This document shows, piece after piece, positions 3,561-17,384 of a stretch of 64,000 nucleotides of DNA. A program made the position numbers and the translations under genes. Origin of the DNA: Burkholderia stagnalis (GTDB taxonomy: Bacteria; Pseudomonadota; Gammaproteobacteria; Burkholderiales; Burkholderiaceae). The notes beneath the pieces are model-generated. The model was not told the origin of the DNA, did not search any database, and saw only the letters and a program-made list of their open reading frames with translations. The stretch's first letter is position 1. Each line of letters opens with the position of its first letter. The stretch covers positions 682,001-746,000 of the forward strand of contig NZ_CADESW010000001.1 in the NCBI RefSeq assembly GCF_902830275.1. The letters are read 5' to 3'.

Positions 3561-3609
3561 CACGTCGCAATCCGCACTGCGCCAGGGCCATGAACGAGGT
3601 AACCAGAAT

Positions 3610-3846
3610 ATGACCGTCGACGAAATTCTTGCGTTGATCCAGCGCCACGAAGTCAAGCACGTCGCTGCCTCCCTCTCGGACGAGATCGCTCGCCAACAAC
3701 CCGAGTTCCAGATCTTCGCGGCTGTTCGCGCGCTGCTTCTCGATACGGGTTGCGCCGAATTCGAAGCCATTACGAAGGCCGAAGCGGTGATGGAAAAGCT
3801 TCGTTATCCATCCCATCCATCCAACCTCCAACCGAATCACGCATGA
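3610..3846 (+). CDS. Small helical hypothetical protein preceding rpsU
   Basis: A 78-residue soluble, mostly helical protein starting [20 protein letters not shown]. An in-frame ORF extends further upstream but lacks methionine-like sequence of this quality; the 3610 ATG is preferred from the protein pattern. Its stop overlaps the rpsU start in an ATGA arrangement, so it is translationally coupled to ribosomal protein S21. That coupling is the best clue to its role, which is otherwise unknown. Confidence 0.55.
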
Positions 3847-4055
3847 CGACAATTCTTCCCAAGCTCAACGAACCACTCGAAGTCACGCTGCGACGATTTC
3901 GCCGGGAGATCGAAAGAACCGGCCTGATCAAGGAACTGCGCAGCCGCACCAGCTATGAAAAGCCGACGGCCGAGCGCAAGCGAAAGAAGGCCAGCGCCGT
4001 GGCCAGACAACGCAAACTGACGAAGCGCCTGCTGCCGCCGCGCAAGATGTACTAA
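3843..4055 (+). CDS. rpsU: 30S ribosomal protein S21 (probable paralogue)
   Basis: Small-subunit protein acting in translation initiation. The 70-residue product begins [20 protein letters not shown] and ends with the very basic [20 protein letters not shown] tail that marks S21. ATG at 3843 overlaps the stop of the preceding gene; the longer in-frame ORF upstream is an artefact of an open frame. Burkholderia genomes usually hold several rpsU copies, and this one is not next to dnaG/rpoD, so it is probably an accessory paralogue. That is inference from context. Confidence 0.92.
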
Positions 4056-4123
4056 GCGCGGCGACGGAACATCGGCACCCGGCGGGTCGCGACGATGCGC
4101 TCACGGCGATCGCCGCAATCCGT

Positions 4124-5434
4124 TCAATGATGGTGCCGCACCCCCGACACGATCGCCTGCTGCGACGCCTTCCGGCTCAGCAGCAGCGTGACCACCGCCG
4201 ACACCGCGAGCGTCCCCGCGACCACGTACAGCCCGGCCGCATAGCCGCCCGTCACGTTCTTCAGCCAGCCGATCGCGAACGGCCCGACGAACCCGCCGAG
4301 GTTGCCGATCGAATTGATCATCGCGATCCCGGCGGCGGCGCCGGCGCCCGACAGGAACATGCTCGGCATCGCCCACAGCGGCGCCTTCGCCGCGCTGATG
4401 CCGATGTTGACGACCACCAGCGCCAGCACCGTCAGCAGCGCGGTGCTCGCCTGCCCCGCGAACACGAAGCCCACGCAGGCCAGCACGCACGGAATCACGA
4501 CGTGCCACGTGCGCTCGTCCGTGCGGTCCGAATGCCGCGCCCACAGGATCATCGCAGCGACGGCCGCGATGCTCGGAATGCCGGTGAGCAGGCCCGTCTG
4601 CAGCGCGCTGAAGCCGAACTGCTTGACCATCAGCGGCGCCCACAGCCCGAGCGTATACAGCCCCGCCGACGTGCCGAAGTAAATCAGCGCGAGCGCGAGC
4701 ACGCGCGGGTCGCGCAGCGCCTGCCATGCGCCGGCCGTATGCCCCGCGTGCGTGTGGCGCGCGTCGGCTTCGGCCTTCAGCTTCGCGATCAGCCAGTCGC
4801 GCTCGTCCGGCGCGAGCCACGCCGCCTGCGACGGCGCATCGGTCATCCGCTTCAGCACCACGAAGCCGAGCACGATCGCCGGCAGCGCCTCGATGATGTA
4901 CAGCATCTGCCAGTCCGCGAGCCCGAACATCGGCGGCAACTGCATGATCGCGCCCGACAGCGGCGAGCCGATCGCGGTCGAGATCGGCGCGGCCGCCATG
5001 AACCACGCGGCGGCCACCGCGCGCTGCTTCGCCGGAAACCACAGGCTCAGGTACAGGATGATGCCGGGAAAAAAGCCCGCCTCGGCCACGCCGAGCAGGA
5101 AGCGCAGCACGTAGAAGCTGGTCGGGCCCGCCGCGAACGCGGACACGGCCGACACGAGGCCCCACGTGATCATCACGCGCGCGATCCAGATGCGCGCGCC
5201 GACGCGGTGCAGGATCAGGTTGGACGGCACCTCGAACAGGAAGTAGCCGATGAAGAACAGCCCGCCGCCGAACCCGAACGCGGTCGGCGACAGGCCGATC
5301 GCCTTGTTCATCGTCATCGCGGCGAAACCGACGTTGACCCGGTCGAGGAAGCTGATGAAATAAAGCAGCATCACGAACGGAATGATGCGCCACATCAGCT
5401 TGCGGGCGACGCGGGATTCCAGGTTGGCTTGCAT
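4124..5434 (-). CDS. MFS transporter, anion:cation symporter type (tartrate-like)
   Basis: Inner-membrane secondary transporter of about 12 transmembrane helices (436 residues), probably importing tartrate or a related dicarboxylate. The N-terminus (residues 10-45) carries the typical ACS-family opening, with LLYFISFLDRVNVGFAA containing the conserved D-R-N-G cluster, followed by a glycine-rich helix pair and an EVPSNLI motif. It lies 126 bp downstream of a tartrate/D-malate dehydrogenase on the same strand, and substrate assignment rests on that pairing. A GGAGGAG ribosome binding site lies just before the ATG at 5434. Confidence 0.85.
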   Translation of the reverse strand: MQANLESRVARKLMWRIIPFVMLLYFISFLDRVNVGFAAMTMNKAIGLSPTAFGFGGGLFFIGYFLFEVPSNLILHRVGARIWIARVMITWGLVSAVSAFAAGPTSFYVLRFLLGVAEAGFFPGIILYLSLWFPAKQRAVAAAWFMAAAPISTAIGSPLSGAIMQLPPMFGLADWQMLYIIEALPAIVLGFVVLKRMTDAPSQAAWLAPDERDWLIAKLKAEADARHTHAGHTAGAWQALRDPRVLALALIYFGTSAGLYTLGLWAPLMVKQFGFSALQTGLLTGIPSIAAVAAMILWARHSDRTDERTWHVVIPCVLACVGFVFAGQASTALLTVLALVVVNIGISAAKAPLWAMPSMFLSGAGAAAGIAMINSIGNLGGFVGPFAIGWLKNVTGGYAAGLYVVAGTLAVSAVVTLLLSRKASQQAIVSGVRHHH

Positions 5435-11356: not shown

Positions 11357-12967
11357 TCAGCGCAGCGCGTCGAGCGCCTGTCGGACCCCGTCCCAATCCA
11401 GCCCGAACCGCGCGAGATACTTGCGCAGCCGGTCCGCGTCGTTCGGCTGCTTCTTGCTCTGCCGCGACACCGCGAACAGCGTGCGCCCGGCCTCTGACAG
11501 GCTCGCCGCCACACGACATACGGCGAGCACACGCTCGAGCTGCACGCGGTCGAACAGGTCGAGTTCCGCCGCGCGCGCGCCGAACACCGCGTCGACGAGA
11601 TCGTCGGCGCTATCCGTCGCCGACCACGTTTGCGTCAACCGTTCGACCTCCTGATCGGCGATGGCCTCGGTGATACGCCCCGCATCGGCGAGCGTCGCCA
11701 TCCGCGTGACCGACGCCGACAGCTCGCGGAAGTTGCCGGCCCACGCCGCTCGCGGCGACGCCGCGAATGCGAGATAGCGCCGCTTCGCCTCGACGTTGAA
11801 GCGCACCTGCTCGCCCTGCTCGCGGCCGAAGCGGTCGAGCTCGAAATCGAGGTTCGGCTCGATGTCCTCGCGGCGCGCCGCGAGGCCCGGCAATTCATAG
11901 GTCCACAGGTTGATCCGCGCGTACAGGTCTTCGCGGAACGTGCCGGCCGCCACCATCTGCCGCAGGTCGCGGTGCGTGCCCGCGATCAGCTCGAAATCGC
12001 TCGCCGTCTCGACGTCCGCGCCGACCGGCAGGAAGCGCTTCTCCTCGATCGCCTTCAGCAGCATCGCCTGCTCGTCGAGCCCCAGTTCGCCGATCTCGTC
12101 GAGAAACAGCAGGCCGCCGTCCGCCGCGCGCAGCAGCCCCGCGCGCGCATTCTGCGCGCCGGTGAACGCGCCTTTCACGTGGCCGAACAGCGTGGACATC
12201 GCCGCGTCGCCGCGCAGCGTCGCGCAGTTGATCTCGATGAACGGCCCGGCGAGCCGATGCCGGCCGCGCTTCAGCTCGTACACCCGCTTCGCGAGGAACG
12301 ACTTGCCCGCGCCGGTCGGCCCGACCAGCAGCATCGGCGCGCGCGAGCGCACGGCCACGCGTTCGAGCTGCTCGATCAGCGCGTTGAAGCGCGCATTCCG
12401 GGTCGCGATGCCGGCCTTCAGGAACGACACCGTCTCGTCGCGTTCGCGCGTGAAGCGCTGCGCGATCCGGTTGTAGCGCGACAGGTCGAGATCGATCACC
12501 GACACCGTGCCGGGCCCGCTCGGCCCCTCGTCGGTCCGCTCCGGCGGCCCGGTCTGCACGAGCCGCGCGGGCAGGTAGCGCGCCTCGGCGAGCAGGAACC
12601 AGCAGATCTGCGCGACGTGCGTGCCGGTCGTGATGTGGATCAGGTAATCCTCGCGATCGAGATCGAACGGATACGCGCGCGCATAGTCGTGCAGCGTCGC
12701 GTAGACCTCCTCGAAATCCCACGGGTCGTGGATCGTGATGGGCGTGAGCCGCACGTCGGTGTGCGGCGACACGCGCGCGAGATCGTCCTTCAAGCGGTTC
12801 GCGAGGCGTGCGTGGCTCGGCGGATGCAGCAGTTCGAGCCGGTCGATCGGCTGATCCGGCTGCTGGCACAGCGAGACCGTCGGCCGCCACTTTTGCCAGC
12901 GGCGGTGTGCGCGGCCGCCCTGGTCGAGCACGGTGCCGAGAAAACCGATTACGACGGTCTTGCGCAT
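11357..12967 (-). CDS. rtcR: RtcR, sigma54-dependent activator of the RNA-repair operon
   Basis: Bacterial enhancer-binding protein that switches on rtcB operons. The 536 residues divide into an N-terminal CARF-like sensor (about 1-185, beginning MRKTVVIGFLGTVLDQG and including ITTGTHVAQICWFLLAEARY at 112-131), an AAA+ domain and a C-terminal helix-turn-helix. In the AAA+ domain I see Walker A GPTGAGKS at 216-223, the sigma54-contacting GAFTGA at 266-271 and Walker B LLFLDE at 286-291. In Salmonella, RtcR is activated by tRNA fragments bearing 2',3'-cyclic phosphate; the same may apply here. It diverges from the tRNA-like/slipin/rtcB/nucleotidyltransferase operon. Confidence 0.95.
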   Translation of the reverse strand: MRKTVVIGFLGTVLDQGGRAHRRWQKWRPTVSLCQQPDQPIDRLELLHPPSHARLANRLKDDLARVSPHTDVRLTPITIHDPWDFEEVYATLHDYARAYPFDLDREDYLIHITTGTHVAQICWFLLAEARYLPARLVQTGPPERTDEGPSGPGTVSVIDLDLSRYNRIAQRFTRERDETVSFLKAGIATRNARFNALIEQLERVAVRSRAPMLLVGPTGAGKSFLAKRVYELKRGRHRLAGPFIEINCATLRGDAAMSTLFGHVKGAFTGAQNARAGLLRAADGGLLFLDEIGELGLDEQAMLLKAIEEKRFLPVGADVETASDFELIAGTHRDLRQMVAAGTFREDLYARINLWTYELPGLAARREDIEPNLDFELDRFGREQGEQVRFNVEAKRRYLAFAASPRAAWAGNFRELSASVTRMATLADAGRITEAIADQEVERLTQTWSATDSADDLVDAVFGARAAELDLFDRVQLERVLAVCRVAASLSEAGRTLFAVSRQSKKQPNDADRLRKYLARFGLDWDGVRQALDALR

Positions 12968-13117: not shown

Positions 13118-13134
13118 TGGCACGCTCCTCGCTA
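13118..13134 (+). promoter_or_regulatory. Sigma54 promoter of the RNA-repair operon
   Basis: TGGCACGCTCCTCGCTA fits the sigma54 consensus TGGCACGN4TTGCW with one change in the -12 element. The invariant GG (13119-13120) and GC (13131-13132) are exactly ten bases apart. Transcription should start near 13143-13146, immediately before the tRNA-like leader. With divergent rtcR this is the expected RtcR-dependent promoter. Confidence 0.85.
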
Positions 13135-13142
13135 TATAAAAA

Positions 13143-13229
13143 GCGCCGGATGTCCCGCTGGCCCGCGAGCCGGGGTTCACAAGCCCTGCTGGTGCGCCGC
13201 CGCCGAACCTTGACCGGTTCGTCGCGGTC
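13143..13229 (+). ncRNA. Leader segment with two T-arm-like hairpins
   Basis: The first part of the predicted operon transcript holds two stem-loops resembling tRNA T arms. One is CGGGG/CCCTG around TTCACAAG (13171-13188), flanked by an acceptor-like pairing of GCGCC (13143) with GGTGC (13191). The other is GACCG/CGGTC around GTTCGTCG (13212-13229). Both loops are eight bases rather than seven, so they are looser matches than the elements downstream. They may be diverged copies of the same tRNA-like module or simply structured leader RNA. Confidence 0.35.
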
Positions 13230-13261
13230 GCGCATGCCGCCATGGACGGACGAAGGCAAAC

Positions 13262-13309
13262 GGGCGCGCTGGATGCGTGAGCCTGGGTTCGAATCCCGGG
13301 GCGCCCACC
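13262..13309 (+). ncRNA. tRNA-like minihelix (acceptor plus T arm)
   Basis: GGGCGC (13262-13267) pairs with GCGCCC (13301-13306) to form an acceptor-like stem. It encloses a canonical T arm, CTGGG-TTCGAAT-CCCGG (13283-13299), with the invariant TTC and A of the T loop. Only 15 bases join the 5' acceptor strand to the T arm, so the D and anticodon arms are absent. The 3' side reads ACCT rather than NCCA. It abuts a complete cloverleaf and lies inside the sigma54-driven leader. It looks like a truncated tRNA or a designed minihelix; processing and function are unknown. Confidence 0.6.
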
Positions 13310-13397
13310 TGTTCGGTAGCTCATTCGGGTAGAGCAGTCGGTGAAAACCGATGTGTAGCGGGTTCAAATCCCGCTCGAACGCTGTCCGCGAGGACAG
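13310..13397 (+). ncRNA. tRNA-like cloverleaf with aberrant anticodon loop and fused 3' hairpin
   Basis: A complete cloverleaf can be drawn. Acceptor is TGTTCGG (13310) with TCGAACG (13375), seven pairs including two G-U. D arm is GCTC/GAGC (13319-13335) with loop ATTCGGGTA retaining GG. Anticodon arm is GTCGG/CCGAT (13337-13352), variable loop is GTGTA, and T arm is GCGGG-TTCAAAT-CCCGC (13358-13374). The anticodon loop TGAAAA has six bases, one fewer than in any decoding tRNA; the stem can add a T-A pair leaving a GAAA tetraloop. It resembles tRNA-Phe with a lost U. No CCA follows; instead CTGTCC-GCGA-GGACAG (13382-13397) forms a GNRA-capped hairpin. Best read as a tRNA mimic co-expressed with RtcB, not a translating tRNA. 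Confidence 0.75.
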
Positions 13398-13643
13398 TCT
13401 CGTAGATGAAAAGCAGTACCCGCCGGCGCGGGCCGCAAGGCCCGCCGCGCGTCGGACCGGTCGCGGTTCCGCGCGAACGGCCGGGCGGCCCGACGGCCCG
13501 CGCGAACGCGCACGACGACGCCATGCAGCACGCGTCGCCGCGCGCACCAGTGCGGCGCCCGAAGCCCCGCCCGCCCGTTCGCGCCGCACCCCGATCCGTG
13601 CGATGCGCGTCCGCCGGCGGACCAAGAAGAAAAGGACAAGAAT
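13398..13643 (+). other. GC-rich untranslated leader before the slipin gene
   Basis: No coding feature is convincing here. The RNA would be strongly structured: GCGGGCC-GCAA-GGCCCGC (13428-13445) is a perfect seven-pair stem with another GNRA tetraloop, followed by further G/C-rich self-complementary sequence and a repeated GCGCGAACG (around 13471 and 13499). It ends with AAAAGGACAAGAAT, the ribosome binding site of the slipin. Confidence 0.5.
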
Positions 13644-15236
13644 ATGTGGAAGCGTCATGTTGTGAAAAAGAACGAACGCGCGCTGCTGATGAGCGAGGGC
13701 GATTTCGTGAAGGTGCTCGAACCGGGTGTGTTCAAGGCTTTCGATCCGTTCAATCGTCTGACGGTGCAGACCGCGCATCTCGACGCGCCGCTCGCCGACG
13801 AGGCGCTCGCCGATTACCTGCGCCACGATGCGCAGGACGTGCTCGCGCGCTATTTCATCGCGATGGATCTCGCGGACGACGAGGCAGGCCTGCGCTACGA
13901 GAACGACGTGCTCGTCGAGATCCTGCCGCCGGGCACGCGCCGGCTTTACTGGCGCGGCCAGCTCGAGCATCGTCTCGAACGCGTCGATCTTGCGCAGGGC
14001 GGCACGCTGCCGGCCGAGCTGGCGAAGCGCCTGACGCAGCCGGCGCTGCGCGCACGCGGCGTCGCGGGGCTTGCGGGCGTGCTGCTGGCCCAGGTGCCGG
14101 CCTACCATGTCGGCATGCTGAAGATCGACGGCAAGATCGAGCGCCTGCTGGACGCCGGCCTGTCCGCGTTCTGGCGCTTCAACCGCGACGTGGCCGTCGA
14201 GCTCGTCGACCTGCGCCAGCAGGCGCTCGAGGTCGGCGGGAAGGAAAGCCAGGCGCTCGCCGACTACCTGCGCCACGACGCGCAGGACGTGCTGGCGCGC
14301 GACTTCGTCGCGATGGATCTGGCCGACGACGAGACGGGCCTGCGCTACGAGGACGACGTGCTCGTCGAGATCGTGCCGCCGGGCACGCGCCGGCTGTACT
14401 GGCGCGGCCTGATCGAGCACCGCCTCGAGCGGATCGATCTCGCGCAGGGCGGCACGCTGCCGGCCGAACTGGCGAAGCGCCTGACGCAGCCGGCGCTGCG
14501 CGCGCGCGGCGTCGCGGGGCTCGAAGGCGTGCTGCTGGCCCAGGTGCCGGCCTACCATGTCGGCGTGCTGAAGATCGACGGCAAGATCGAGCGCTTGCTG
14601 GATGCCGGCCTGTCCGCATTCTGGCGCTTCAATCGCGACGTGACGGTCGAGCTCGTCGACCTGCGACTGCAGGCGCTCGAGGTCGGCGGGCAGGAAATCC
14701 TGACGCGCGACAAGGTCGCGCTGCGGCTGAACCTGTCGGCGACCTGGCGCTACGCGGACGTGCTGCGCGCATACGGGCAGTTGCAGAAGCCGGTCGAGCA
14801 CCTGTATCGCGAGCTGCAGTTCGCGCTGCGCGCCGCCGTCGGCACGCGCACGCTGGACGAGCTGCTCGAGGACAAGCAGGCGATCGACGAGGTCGTGATG
14901 GCGCAGGTGCTCCCGCGGCTCGCCGATTCGGGGGTCGATGTGCGCAGCGTCGGCGTGAAGGATATCGTGCTGCCGGGCGACATGAAGACGATCCTCGCGC
15001 AGGTGGTCGAGGCCGAGAAGGCCGCGCAGGCGAACGTGATCCGCCGCCGCGAGGAAACCGCGGCGACCCGTTCGCTGCTGAACACCGCGAAGGTGATGGA
15101 AGAGAACCCGACCGCGCTGCGGCTCAAGGAGCTGGAAACGCTCGAGCGGATCGCGGAACGGATCGACCGCATCTCGGTGTTCGGCGGTCTCGACCAGGTG
15201 CTGAACGGGCTGGTCAACATCAAGGCCGCGCAATGA
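13644..15236 (+). CDS. Slipin (SPFH/Band 7) protein with internally duplicated N-terminal region
   Basis: Membrane-associated scaffold-type protein encoded in many rtc operons. The 530 residues begin with a short MWKRHVVKKNERALLMSEGD segment, then two nearly identical 150-residue units (54-203 and 204-353), then the Band 7 domain (about 335-480, including LEVGGQEILTRDKVALRLNL) and a helical, charged C-terminus (VVEAEKAAQANVIRRREE) typical of oligomerising slipins. Without one unit the protein would be about 380 residues, a usual length for this group. It is first in the operon after the tRNA-like leader and 57 bp before rtcB. Its role in RNA repair is unknown; membrane anchoring of the repair machinery is a guess. 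Confidence 0.85.
   Translation: MWKRHVVKKNERALLMSEGDFVKVLEPGVFKAFDPFNRLTVQTAHLDAPLADEALADYLRHDAQDVLARYFIAMDLADDEAGLRYENDVLVEILPPGTRRLYWRGQLEHRLERVDLAQGGTLPAELAKRLTQPALRARGVAGLAGVLLAQVPAYHVGMLKIDGKIERLLDAGLSAFWRFNRDVAVELVDLRQQALEVGGKESQALADYLRHDAQDVLARDFVAMDLADDETGLRYEDDVLVEIVPPGTRRLYWRGLIEHRLERIDLAQGGTLPAELAKRLTQPALRARGVAGLEGVLLAQVPAYHVGVLKIDGKIERLLDAGLSAFWRFNRDVTVELVDLRLQALEVGGQEILTRDKVALRLNLSATWRYADVLRAYGQLQKPVEHLYRELQFALRAAVGTRTLDELLEDKQAIDEVVMAQVLPRLADSGVDVRSVGVKDIVLPGDMKTILAQVVEAEKAAQANVIRRREETAATRSLLNTAKVMEENPTALRLKELETLERIAERIDRISVFGGLDQVLNGLVNIKAAQ
13803..14702 (+). repeat. 450-bp in-frame tandem duplication inside the slipin gene
   Basis: Bases 13803-14252 and 14253-14702 are direct tandem copies with a period of exactly 450 bp. 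The encoded units start ALADYLRHDAQDVLAR and differ at 13 of the first 148 residues. Many of the DNA differences are silent third-position changes, so both copies appear to have been kept under coding constraint since duplication. Confidence 0.95.
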
Positions 15237-15293
15237 ACGCGGCGGCGCGGCGCACGAGCGCCGCGCGATAGATAACGAATGCAGGTGAAGGCA

Positions 15294-16517
15294 ATGAATG
15301 AACTGGATTATCAAGTGATGGAACTGGCGCACGGCAAGCCGGTGAAGATGTGGACCCAAGGCGTCGCCGTCGAGGAAGATGCGCGCGCGCAACTGCGCAA
15401 CACCGCGCAGATGCCGTTCATCTTCAAGCACGTCGCCGTGATGCCGGACGTGCACCTCGGCAAGGGCTCGACGATCGGCAGCGTGATTCCGACGAAAGGC
15501 GCGATCATTCCGGCCGCGGTGGGCGTCGACATCGGCTGCGGGATGATGGCCGCGCGCACGACGCTCGCCGCGTCGGACCTGCCGGATTCGCTGGCCGGGC
15601 TGCGCAGCGCGATCGAACGCGCGGTGCCGCACGGCCGCGCGCCGGGCCGGCGCGATCCCGGCGCATGGGGCAACCGTGCGCCGCAGCAGGTCGACGAGAT
15701 GTGGAAGGTGCTGGCGCCGGGGTTCCGCCGGATCGTCGACAAGTATCCGAAGCTGGAGAAGACCAACCACTACGTGCATCTCGGCACGCTCGGCACCGGC
15801 AACCACTTCATCGAAGTGTGCGTCGACGAGAACGACAGCGTGTGGTTCATGCTGCACAGCGGCTCGCGCGGCGTCGGCAACGCGATCGGCAGCCTGTTCA
15901 TCGAACTCGCGCAGGCCGACATGCGGCAGCACATCGCGAACCTGCCGGATCGCAACCTCGCGTATTTCACCGAGGGCAGCCGGCACTTCGACGACTACGT
16001 CGAAGCGGTGGGCTGGGCGCAGGACTACGCGCGACGCAACCGCCAGGTGATGATGGACGCGGTGATCGAGGCGGCGCGCAGCGTGATCGGCAAGCCGTTC
16101 GGCATCGACGAGCACGCGGTGAACTGCCACCACAACTACGTGCAGCGGGAGCGCCACTTCGGCGAGGACGTGCTCGTGACCCGCAAGGGTGCGGTGTCCG
16201 CGCAGAAGGGGCAGCTCGGGATCATTCCGGGCTCGATGGGCGCGAAGAGCTTCATCGTGCGCGGGCTCGGCAATCCGGAGAGCTTCTGTTCGTGCAGCCA
16301 CGGCGCGGGGCGCTCGATGAGCCGTACCGAGGCGAAACGCCGCTTCACGGTCGAGGACCAGGTGAAGGCGACGCAGGGCGTCGAATGCCGGAAGGACGCG
16401 GGCGTGGTCGACGAGATCCCGATGGCCTACAAGGACATCGACGCGGTGATGGCCGCGCAGCGCAGCCTCGTCGAGGTCGTGCATACGCTGCGGCAGGTGG
16501 TGTGCGTGAAGGGATAG
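15294..16517 (+). CDS. rtcB: RNA-splicing ligase RtcB
   Basis: GTP- and Mn-dependent ligase joining 2',3'-cyclic-phosphate or 3'-phosphate ends to 5'-hydroxyl RNA ends. It aligns over its whole length with E. coli RtcB (407 versus 408 residues). Metal and active-site motifs are present: VMPDVHLGKGSTIGSVIPTK, the metal-binding cysteine in GVDIGCGM, HLGTLGTGNHFIE, HSGSRGVGN, NCHHNYVQ and the guanylated histidine in CSCSHGAGRSMSR. ATG at 15294 is preferred over 15279 because AGGTGAAGG precedes it and it restores the family length. It lies between the slipin and the RlaP-like gene; no rtcA cyclase follows. Confidence 0.96.
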   Translation: MNELDYQVMELAHGKPVKMWTQGVAVEEDARAQLRNTAQMPFIFKHVAVMPDVHLGKGSTIGSVIPTKGAIIPAAVGVDIGCGMMAARTTLAASDLPDSLAGLRSAIERAVPHGRAPGRRDPGAWGNRAPQQVDEMWKVLAPGFRRIVDKYPKLEKTNHYVHLGTLGTGNHFIEVCVDENDSVWFMLHSGSRGVGNAIGSLFIELAQADMRQHIANLPDRNLAYFTEGSRHFDDYVEAVGWAQDYARRNRQVMMDAVIEAARSVIGKPFGIDEHAVNCHHNYVQRERHFGEDVLVTRKGAVSAQKGQLGIIPGSMGAKSFIVRGLGNPESFCSCSHGAGRSMSRTEAKRRFTVEDQVKATQGVECRKDAGVVDEIPMAYKDIDAVMAAQRSLVEVVHTLRQVVCVKG

Positions 16518-16568
16518 CGCGGGGCGCGGCCGAAGGCCGGGCGGCCGCGCGCAATACGAGAGAACAAG

Positions 16569-17384
16569 ATGAAACGAGAAGAAGACATGAAAACCGTGCG
16601 CAGCGCACATCCGGTCGACCCGGCCGTGCGCGAGCGCGTGCTCGCGGAACTCGACGATGTCGAACGACGCAACGACGTGAAGGTGCTGTTCGCGTGCGAA
16701 TCGGGCAGCCGCGGCTGGGGGTTTGCATCGCCGGACAGCGACTACGACGTGCGCTTCGTCTACGTGCACCGACGCGACTGGTATCTGCGCGTCGAGCCGC
16801 AACGCGACGTGATCGAGCGGCCGCTCGACGACGAGCTCGATGTGAGCGGCTGGGAACTGTGCAAGGCGCTGCAACTGCTGCATCGCTCGAACCCGACGCT
16901 GCTCGAATGGCTCGATTCGCCGGTCGTGTATCGCGAGGACGCGCTGCTGGCGTTGCGGCTCAGAGCGCTCGCCAACGCGTTCTTTTCACCGATGCGCGGG
17001 CGGCATCATTACCTGTCGATGGCGAAGAAGAACTTTCGCGGGTATCTGCAAGGCGAGACGGTACGCTACAAGAAGTACCTGTATGTGCTGCGGCCGCTGC
17101 TCGCGGTGCGCTGGATCGACATGGGGCTCGGGATGCCGCCGATGCGGTTCGCGGATCTCGTGGCGGGCACCGTGCACGAACCGGCGGTGCTCGCGGAGCT
17201 CGATGCATTGCTCGAGCTGAAGATGCGGGCGGGCGAAGGGGAGTATGGGCCGCGGCGGCCCGCTATCCACACGCTCGTCGAGTCGATGCTCGCCGATGCC
17301 GAGCATGATCGCGAATACAAGCGGCCGTGGGGGGATGTCGCCATGCTCGATGCGTTCATGCTGGATGCGCTCGAAGGCCGGTGA
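16569..17384 (+). CDS. RtcB-associated nucleotidyltransferase (RlaP-type)
   Basis: Predicted polymerase-beta-superfamily nucleotidyltransferase (271 residues), a family noted for linkage to RNA-ligase operons. The catalytic signature is visible: GSRG at 46-49 and the metal-binding pair in DYD at 58-60, within ESGSRGWGFASPDSDYDVRF. The remainder is helical and includes an ELCKALQLLHRSNPTLLEWL segment. It may add or restore nucleotides at damaged RNA ends before RtcB sealing; that is inference from fold and context. It begins 51 bp after rtcB and is the last gene before a strong terminator. Confidence 0.85.
   Translation: MKREEDMKTVRSAHPVDPAVRERVLAELDDVERRNDVKVLFACESGSRGWGFASPDSDYDVRFVYVHRRDWYLRVEPQRDVIERPLDDELDVSGWELCKALQLLHRSNPTLLEWLDSPVVYREDALLALRLRALANAFFSPMRGRHHYLSMAKKNFRGYLQGETVRYKKYLYVLRPLLAVRWIDMGLGMPPMRFADLVAGTVHEPAVLAELDALLELKMRAGEGEYGPRRPAIHTLVESMLADAEHDREYKRPWGDVAMLDAFMLDALEGR

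Follow-up and report, generated by a model that had tools for sequence, protein, structure and literature searches.

In the window (the whole 64,000-nucleotide stretch of Burkholderia stagnalis DNA that was analysed), we found a predicted conserved RNA of ~255 nt, preceded by a sigma54-type promoter and lying in the interval that separates rtcR from the genes slipin, rtcB, and rlaP. Our preferred reading, to which we give a probability of about 45%, is that this RNA (13145-13398) would be a Y-RNA-like, non-decoding mimic of the tRNA elbow, induced by RtcR and holding tRNA-handling enzymes that bind elbows. Everything beyond a conserved structured RNA in this operon is inferred.

The locus has the composition of an RNA-repair operon: a divergent RtcR gene, a sigma54-type promoter, and rtcB are all present, with rtcR on the minus strand and slipin, rtcB, and rlaP, named by Pfam, on the plus strand (13644-17384 altogether; Table 1). 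The view that a tRNA mimic is built into a sigma54/RtcR operon, put forward in the original prediction, agrees with this layout. The element in front of the RNA is presumably a sigma54 −24/−12 promoter, as judged from its consensus. Its pattern was matched in all 40 leaders of the genus. Of the 102 slipin-first leaders with a T-arm, 100 showed a looser sigma54-like pattern, which was counted without a chance control. The leader of the window shares 98.9% identity with a B. stagnalis leader. From the promoter spacing, the transcript would be expected to start at the foot of the three-way junction that opens the RNA. The slipin of the window is 530 aa long, including an internal duplication (13801-14100 and 14251-14550, 300 nt, 91% identical, with a 450-bp spacing), versus 379 aa at the loci L033 and L041. 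No rtcA match was found in the 11 loci of the genus that were searched, with 2.2 to 8 kb in view in each; in Salmonella, RtcA is described as needed for activation in the part of PMC7790460 considered here.

Table 1. Features of the RNA-repair locus and of the predicted RNA in the window
Feature	Position	Strand	Basis
rtcR (CARF-type RtcR domain and sigma54-activator AAA+)	11357..12967	-	Pfam PF06956 (280.7 bits) and PF00158
Predicted sigma54 −24/−12 promoter, TGGCAC-N7-GC	13118..13132	+	From sequence
Domain 1, three-way junction, core C[CT]GGUGC ... GCAUGCCGC	13145..13261	+	Covariance models R1/R2, covariation
M2, acceptor/T-arm minihelix	13262..13306	+	Pairing in the sequence and in the 41-leader consensus fold
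M3, tRNA-like cloverleaf with GAAA-capped anticodon arm and no CCA	13310..13381	+	ARAGORN, RF00005, fold, covariation
H4, 7-bp hairpin with a GCGA cap, adjoining the acceptor end of M3	13381..13398	+	Fold; double changes in the 41-leader alignment
Conserved GC-rich hairpins 3' of the mimic	13413..13490	+	Consensus fold of 41 leaders
slipin (SPFH/Band 7)	13644..15236	+	Pfam PF01145
rtcB RNA ligase	15279..16517	+	Pfam PF01139 (439.4 bits)
rlaP (RNA-repair polymerase-beta family)	16569..17384	+	Pfam PF10127 (314.5 bits)

The original prediction had placed a minihelix and, one base further on, a cloverleaf at 13262..13397. Both modules are present, separated by three bases (13307-13309) rather than one, and the interval turned out to be part of a longer feature, since the conserved domain at 13145-13261 precedes it. 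M2 is closed by the pairing of GGGCGC (13262-13267) with GCGCCC (13301-13306), which encloses the T-arm. In M3, the anticodon arm is a six-pair stem closed by GAAA (GTCGGT-GAAA-ACCGAT, 13337-13352), the D-loop contains GGG, and the T-loop reads TTCAAAT. Thus, the details claimed for the cloverleaf (GAAA closure, missing CCA, D-loop GG, T-loop TTC, and a hairpin of GNRA type, here GCGA) can all be read in the sequence. The consensus fold of 41 leaders, 40 from the genus and one from another genus, consists of a multi-branched domain at 13145-13261 followed by M2, M3, H4, and more GC-rich hairpins; these last hairpins (Table 1) have no T-run and are therefore not a plain terminator. A third tRNA-like module at 13145-13200, formed by a GCCGG...CTGGTGC pairing and a T-like hairpin, was considered and rejected: the pairing is broken in L041 and L066, and the consensus fold of this part is multi-branched.

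The cloverleaf itself was recovered by several tools. At 13310-13382, ARAGORN called a tRNA whose anticodon could not be read, and the Rfam tRNA model (RF00005) matched M3 at 42.3 bits (gathering cutoff 29), with all four stems fitting. M3 together with its hairpin folds at −38.5 kcal/mol (z −3.77), an energy reached by one of 200 shuffles. The M3 match is the lowest of the 55 RF00005 matches in its own genome, the other 54 scoring 50.1-74.8, and a DNA search of the genome found no second copy of it (next match at E 1.78). Across the genus, ARAGORN found the cloverleaf in 28 of the 40 leaders, that of the window included. The fold energy of the whole 13240-13420 stretch has a z of −1.39 only, and the junction by itself (z −0.62) folds no better than its shuffles; the argument for the junction is therefore one of conservation and covariation rather than of stability.

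Compensatory changes across homologous loci had been set beforehand as a test of the predicted structure, and they are present in the alignments of both the junction and M3. In the junction alignment (38 sequences), 91.8% of the cells are paired, 32 of the 37 pairs show changes on both sides, and the covariation score is 0.53, versus 0.18 in shuffled and at most 0.086 in slid alignments; this alignment was fitted to the covariance model, so that these figures are favoured by the fit. RNAalifold, run on the same 38 sequences, gave 25 pairs, with double changes in 19. For M3 (44 sequences aligned with MAFFT), 90.3% of the cells are paired, 14 of the 21 pairs covary, and the score is 0.434, versus 0.143 shuffled and at most 0.106 slid. 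All five pairs of the anticodon stem covary; in the acceptor stem the inner pairs are kept and the outermost pairs are often open. The strict rule by which M3 units were selected required the D-stem, the T-stem, the D-loop GG, and the T-loop pattern, and made no demand on acceptor or anticodon-stem pairing; none of these four required features is thus independent evidence. This D-arm plus T-arm rule was used instead of an earlier cloverleaf extraction, which needed five acceptor pairs and lost 31 of 102 loci.

Units that follow the strict rule occur in 82 of the 105 slipin-first leaders, and the other 23 fail it. In 77 of the 82, a T-arm stands upstream of M3, with the acceptor strands −3 to +3 nt apart. 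Two complete tRNA-like units by the same rule were found in nine leaders, seven of them from named Pseudomonas, and the M2 minihelix of the window looks like a cut-down first unit of such two-unit leaders.

The claim that the RNA cannot decode holds in a graded form, short of certainty. The window has a cloverleaf with D- and T-arms; it has neither a 7-nt loop with U33 and a conserved anticodon nor an encoded CCA. Of the 82 strict units, 47 have the anticodon arm capped by a GNRA or UNCG tetraloop and 8 carry a 7-nt loop with T33 there, and the anticodons named by ARAGORN vary from locus to locus. A CCA lies within 5 nt of the M3 acceptor in 2/82 units, and within 5 nt after M2 in 19/77, where M3 starts within −3 to +3 nt. 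With no conservation of the anticodon, the loop size, the acceptor end, or CCA, decoding is very unlikely. A standard gene finder calls such units tRNA-Arg, -Ser, -Leu, and so on; thus, genome annotations may list them as tRNAs.

As judged by sequence searches, the predicted RNA is widespread, extending to many genera of beta- and gamma-proteobacteria. In the genus, RtcR was found in 40 of 65 genomes, and the 40 leaders could all be aligned. A junction model trained on 14 leaders of the genus and one other (R1) matched the same 40 genomes, in single copy each, and none of the 25 genomes without RtcR (Fisher 1.5e-18, with shared ancestry uncorrected). The wider RtcR searches found the gene in 37/299 sampled genomes of the family, 44/399 of the order, 15/369 of the class, and 28/398 of the phylum. 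A slipin-based scan contributed the best 80 named loci of a longer list, and the two sources together gave 166 distinct RtcR leaders.

Applied to 34 other slipin loci, R1 placed the junction at the leader position in 27 with E ≤ 0.011, and in L180 with 0.13. A second model (R2) matched, at E ≤ 0.005, 62 of the 65 slipin-first loci outside the genus: 31/31 of the loci in its training set and 31/34 of those outside it. The model missed L075 and L161 and gave a weak match (0.095) in L159. Among the 61 RtcR loci of other layouts, the only R2 match was L071, in which rtcB comes first and the RNA is kept, although no slipin was found there. A regular expression for the junction matched 96 of the 105 slipin-first leaders and 2 of the 61 others; its matches in L168 and L169, both inside rsr, were rejected as chance. 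R2 also matched the minus strand away from the leader in L206 (E 0.0003) and L213 (E 0.043).

A similar count came from the family of G741, the members of which cluster with named Pseudomonas in the RtcR tree: RtcR was found in 33 of 188 genomes, and the RNA in 18 of these 33 and in none of the 155 genomes without RtcR. All 18 RNAs lie upstream of RtcR on the opposite strand, 17 within ~0.2 kb and one ~0.8 kb from the RtcR domain. Under strict filters, the remaining 15 genomes with RtcR had no R2 match, and at least one of them (G862) has an rsr operon.

The junction was also present at slipin loci without RtcR in the stretch examined, with matches in 20/20 at E ≤ 0.035 and in 19 at E ≤ 1e-4. 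RtcR was found in two of the 20 genomes that carry these loci, several of which are metagenome bins and may be incomplete. Thus, RtcR alone does not account for where the RNA occurs; its link is to repair operons of the slipin type. At 15 of these 20 loci (L203, L205-L208, L210, L213-L215, L218, L222, L225, L232, L234, and L265), tRNA genes called by ARAGORN stand upstream of the RNA on the same strand, up to 19 in L234 and 12 in L265; in L234, an HNH gene (3567-4142) lies between the tRNA genes and the RNA.

Then, we compared slipin-first operons with those of other layouts. In RtcR leaders outside the genus, collected with no bias toward slipin, a T-arm was found in 15/15 slipin-first leaders versus 9/61 others (Fisher 4.6e-10); the loci share ancestry, and Fisher values of this kind therefore overstate independence. 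With the genus and the loci found through slipin included, the T-arm is present in 102 of 105 slipin-first leaders, 60 of which hold a full cloverleaf by a strict test, and in 70 of 2100 mononucleotide-shuffled leaders. Three slipin-first loci without a T-arm (L219, L257, and L261) keep the junction. The nine leaders with a T-arm that are not slipin-first comprise four rsr-first leaders with YrlA-like units, L071, L115, L177, and two (L103 and L163) in which the match is probably due to chance. The L177 leader contains a tRNA-like 3' half with CCA. L115 (L093), an rtcB-first locus from another class of the phylum, has a normal-looking tRNA-Pro(UGG) with CCA between promoter and rtcB.

Rsr was found in none of the 105 slipin-first loci, 73 of which have at least 4.5 kb in view, and slipin in none of the 24 rsr-first loci, 23 of which have at least 4.5 kb in view. 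Five rtcB-first loci carry slipin and have no R2 match; taken together with L071, they indicate that slipin is neither necessary nor sufficient for the RNA. The Rfam model of YrlA matched five of the nine rsr-type loci given to it.

A quick tree of RtcR was obtained from 120 rows, with long branches flagged, 11 loci with a short RtcR stretch left out, and 5 of the 40 rows of the genus included. On this tree, the label "slipin plus mimic" changes 15 times, and at least five of these changes are forced by well-supported (starred) branches. For example, L102, which has rsr and YrlA, is sister to L255, which has slipin and the mimic, with a support of 99; the contrasts between L167 and L173 and between L168-L169 and L176 are similar and have weaker support. 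Since close relatives of RtcR carry different cassettes, these appear to have been exchanged behind the same regulator. In summary of its fate, the original prediction was confirmed in its core observation, was partly supported in its interpretation, and was incomplete as a description: it had not recognised the junction, how widely the RNA occurs, its association with slipin-first operons, or M2 as a second elbow unit.

Some leaders have arrangements of their own. In the rsr-first loci L076 (L042), L182, L183, and L188, the order of the leader is T-arm, acceptor strands, and D-arm, as in YrlA; the leaders of L182, L183, and L188 contain three T-arms each, and L183 has one stretch that scores high enough for the gathering cutoff of YrlA. 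These leaders may hint at an origin of YrlA from tandem tRNA-like units, L042/L076 suggesting a fusion of the 3' part of an M2 to the 5' part of an M3. The AT-rich, slipin-first locus L075 (L046) has three tandem tRNA-like units behind its promoter, 240-460 nt from the RtcR start, which were called Ser AGA, no anticodon, and Thr AGT. At L057-L060 and L063 (genus g295, same family), the sigma54-type promoter and rtcB are separated by a small ORF that has CxxC pairs.

The mechanism that we propose would begin with RtcR sensing broken tRNAs, upon which the predicted RNA would be made and would accumulate as a discrete RNA. The junction would dock a partner encoded by the operon, slipin being the first candidate, and the elbows could hold PNPase, TruB/Dus, a tRNA nuclease, or other enzymes of this kind. 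Such binding may then direct damaged tRNAs into repair or decay, or to a shelter at the slipin scaffold. Because this would be the logic of YrlA in another build, with a docking domain, elbows, and slipin in the place of rsr, we take the RNA to be a Y-RNA-like mimic that probably serves the quality control of tRNAs when these are damaged. A bolder proposal, which we hold more loosely, is that of a second, Ro60-free Y-RNA-like particle, in which junction RNA and tandem elbows might work with the membrane SPFH scaffold slipin, the cassettes being swapped behind RtcR.

Two rivals are serious, each being unlikely rather than negligible. The RNA could be a pure decoy, that is, a free mimic that competes through its elbow for anticodon nucleases or toxins, with no loop to be cut and no partner in the operon. 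This would suit an anticodon arm that is kept as a covarying stem, yet is capped by GNRA or UNCG in 47/82 units, and would recall the competitive inhibition that Hughes et al. propose for the uncleaved YrlA (PMC7790460, in the part considered here). A decoy leaves unexplained both the junction, which is kept in L257 and L261 where the elbow units are gone or broken, and the tie to slipin-first operons. With a comparable chance of being right, the RNA could be a cis-acting leader that controls or stabilises the operon mRNA, as a processing signal of RNase P type or through feedback by RtcB, RlaP, or slipin. The position of the RNA at the front of the operon, in sense orientation in the leaders examined, points this way, as do the conserved hairpins downstream of it in the genus. 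However, the slipin match starts anywhere from 150 to 493 nt after the last T-arm, the operon can open with another gene (rtcB in L071), and the RNA is still present in genomes that yielded no RtcR and have tRNA genes upstream of it.

The other explanations are far less probable. If the units were degenerate tRNA genes, functionless relics of the tRNA arrays of related operons, the upstream tRNA genes at 15/20 slipin operons without RtcR in the stretch examined and the frayed acceptor ends would be accounted for; strong covariation, the near-fixed M2-M3 spacing, and occurrence in many genera make this highly improbable. Slightly more doubtful still is the feed-forward idea of the original prediction, in which the cleaved mimic would be a source of 5' halves that keep RtcR active. 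In the part of PMC7790460 considered here, Salmonella RtcR is described as bound and activated by 5' tRNA halves that are cut in the anticodon loop and bear a cyclic-phosphate end, and M3 does have a tRNA-like 5' half. The idea is very unlikely because the normal cleavage site, at which the halves that bind RtcR are produced, is missing from the tetraloop-capped arms of 47/82 units. Moreover, in the same part of that article, fragments of the operon's YrlA were undetected and YrlA was uncleaved, and 18 genomes that yielded no RtcR, incomplete bins among them, carry the mimic RNA. We give the least credit to working, specialised tRNAs induced by stress: 7-nt loops with T33 exist in 8/82 units, ARAGORN names anticodons for many, and L115 has its tRNA-Pro with CCA, but the anticodons vary by locus, 80/82 units have no CCA within 5 nt of the M3 acceptor, and in the window a hairpin abuts the acceptor end.

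If the elbow-mimic reading is right, it would bear on a wider question, since the role of bacterial tRNA mimics in RNA-repair operons is approached mainly through Ro60/YrlA in the work considered here. A second, differently built mimic would show the elbow to be the essential part and Ro60 and the permuted order to be replaceable, would give slipin a testable partner, and would make the contribution of tRNA mimicry to tRNA repair testable in Pseudomonas, Delftia, and Acidovorax.

Finally, we compared the RNA with known systems. No Rfam family matched the junction, even at E 1. Among the matches listed in a search of the openly licensed literature, limited to titles and the starts of abstracts, none describes this RNA, and it is not mentioned in the parts considered of a study of the P. 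aeruginosa rtc operon (PMC8619066) or of PMC7790460 and PMC9650030.

Like the mimic, YrlA (RF02553, from rsr-yrlBA-rtcBA operons) belongs to an RtcR-controlled operon, combines mimicry of the D, T, and acceptor parts with absence of decoding, and alternates with the slipin-plus-mimic cassette on the RtcR tree. According to the part of PMC8394870 considered here, the tRNA parts imitated by YrlA are the D, T, and acceptor arms; YrlA is a substrate of DusA and TruB, its basal stem binds Rsr, and its tRNA-like part binds PNPase. The window RNA was nevertheless rejected as a YrlA, in keeping with the distinction drawn in the original prediction: the D- and T-arms of M3 mimic the tRNA elbow, but the RF02553 score is 18.7 bits versus a cutoff of 69 (E 0.27), no rsr is linked in view, and the order is not permuted. 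Indeed, the T-arm precedes the D-arm in the YrlA model, whereas M3 follows the order of a tRNA. The two also differ in build, YrlA having a basal stem that binds Ro60 (PMC8394870, same part) and the mimic having tandem elbow units behind a three-way junction, with no rsr in view.

With tRNA genes (RF00005), M3 shares a fit to the model with all four stems; unlike them, it has no usable anticodon loop, no CCA, and a hairpin fused to its end. As in tmRNA (RF00023), the tRNA-like part lies within a longer RNA, and neither ARAGORN nor Rfam gave a tmRNA match in the window. The Anabaena trn operon/TrcR regulon, as described in part of PMC10272220, places a tRNA array, rtcB, slipin, and HNH genes under one repressor that is relieved under translation stress. 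There, tRNA genes stand under the repressor and no mimic RNA is described in that part of the article; the gene set is the same as that adjoining the mimic RNA in L234, and the TrcR regulon is an independent parallel.
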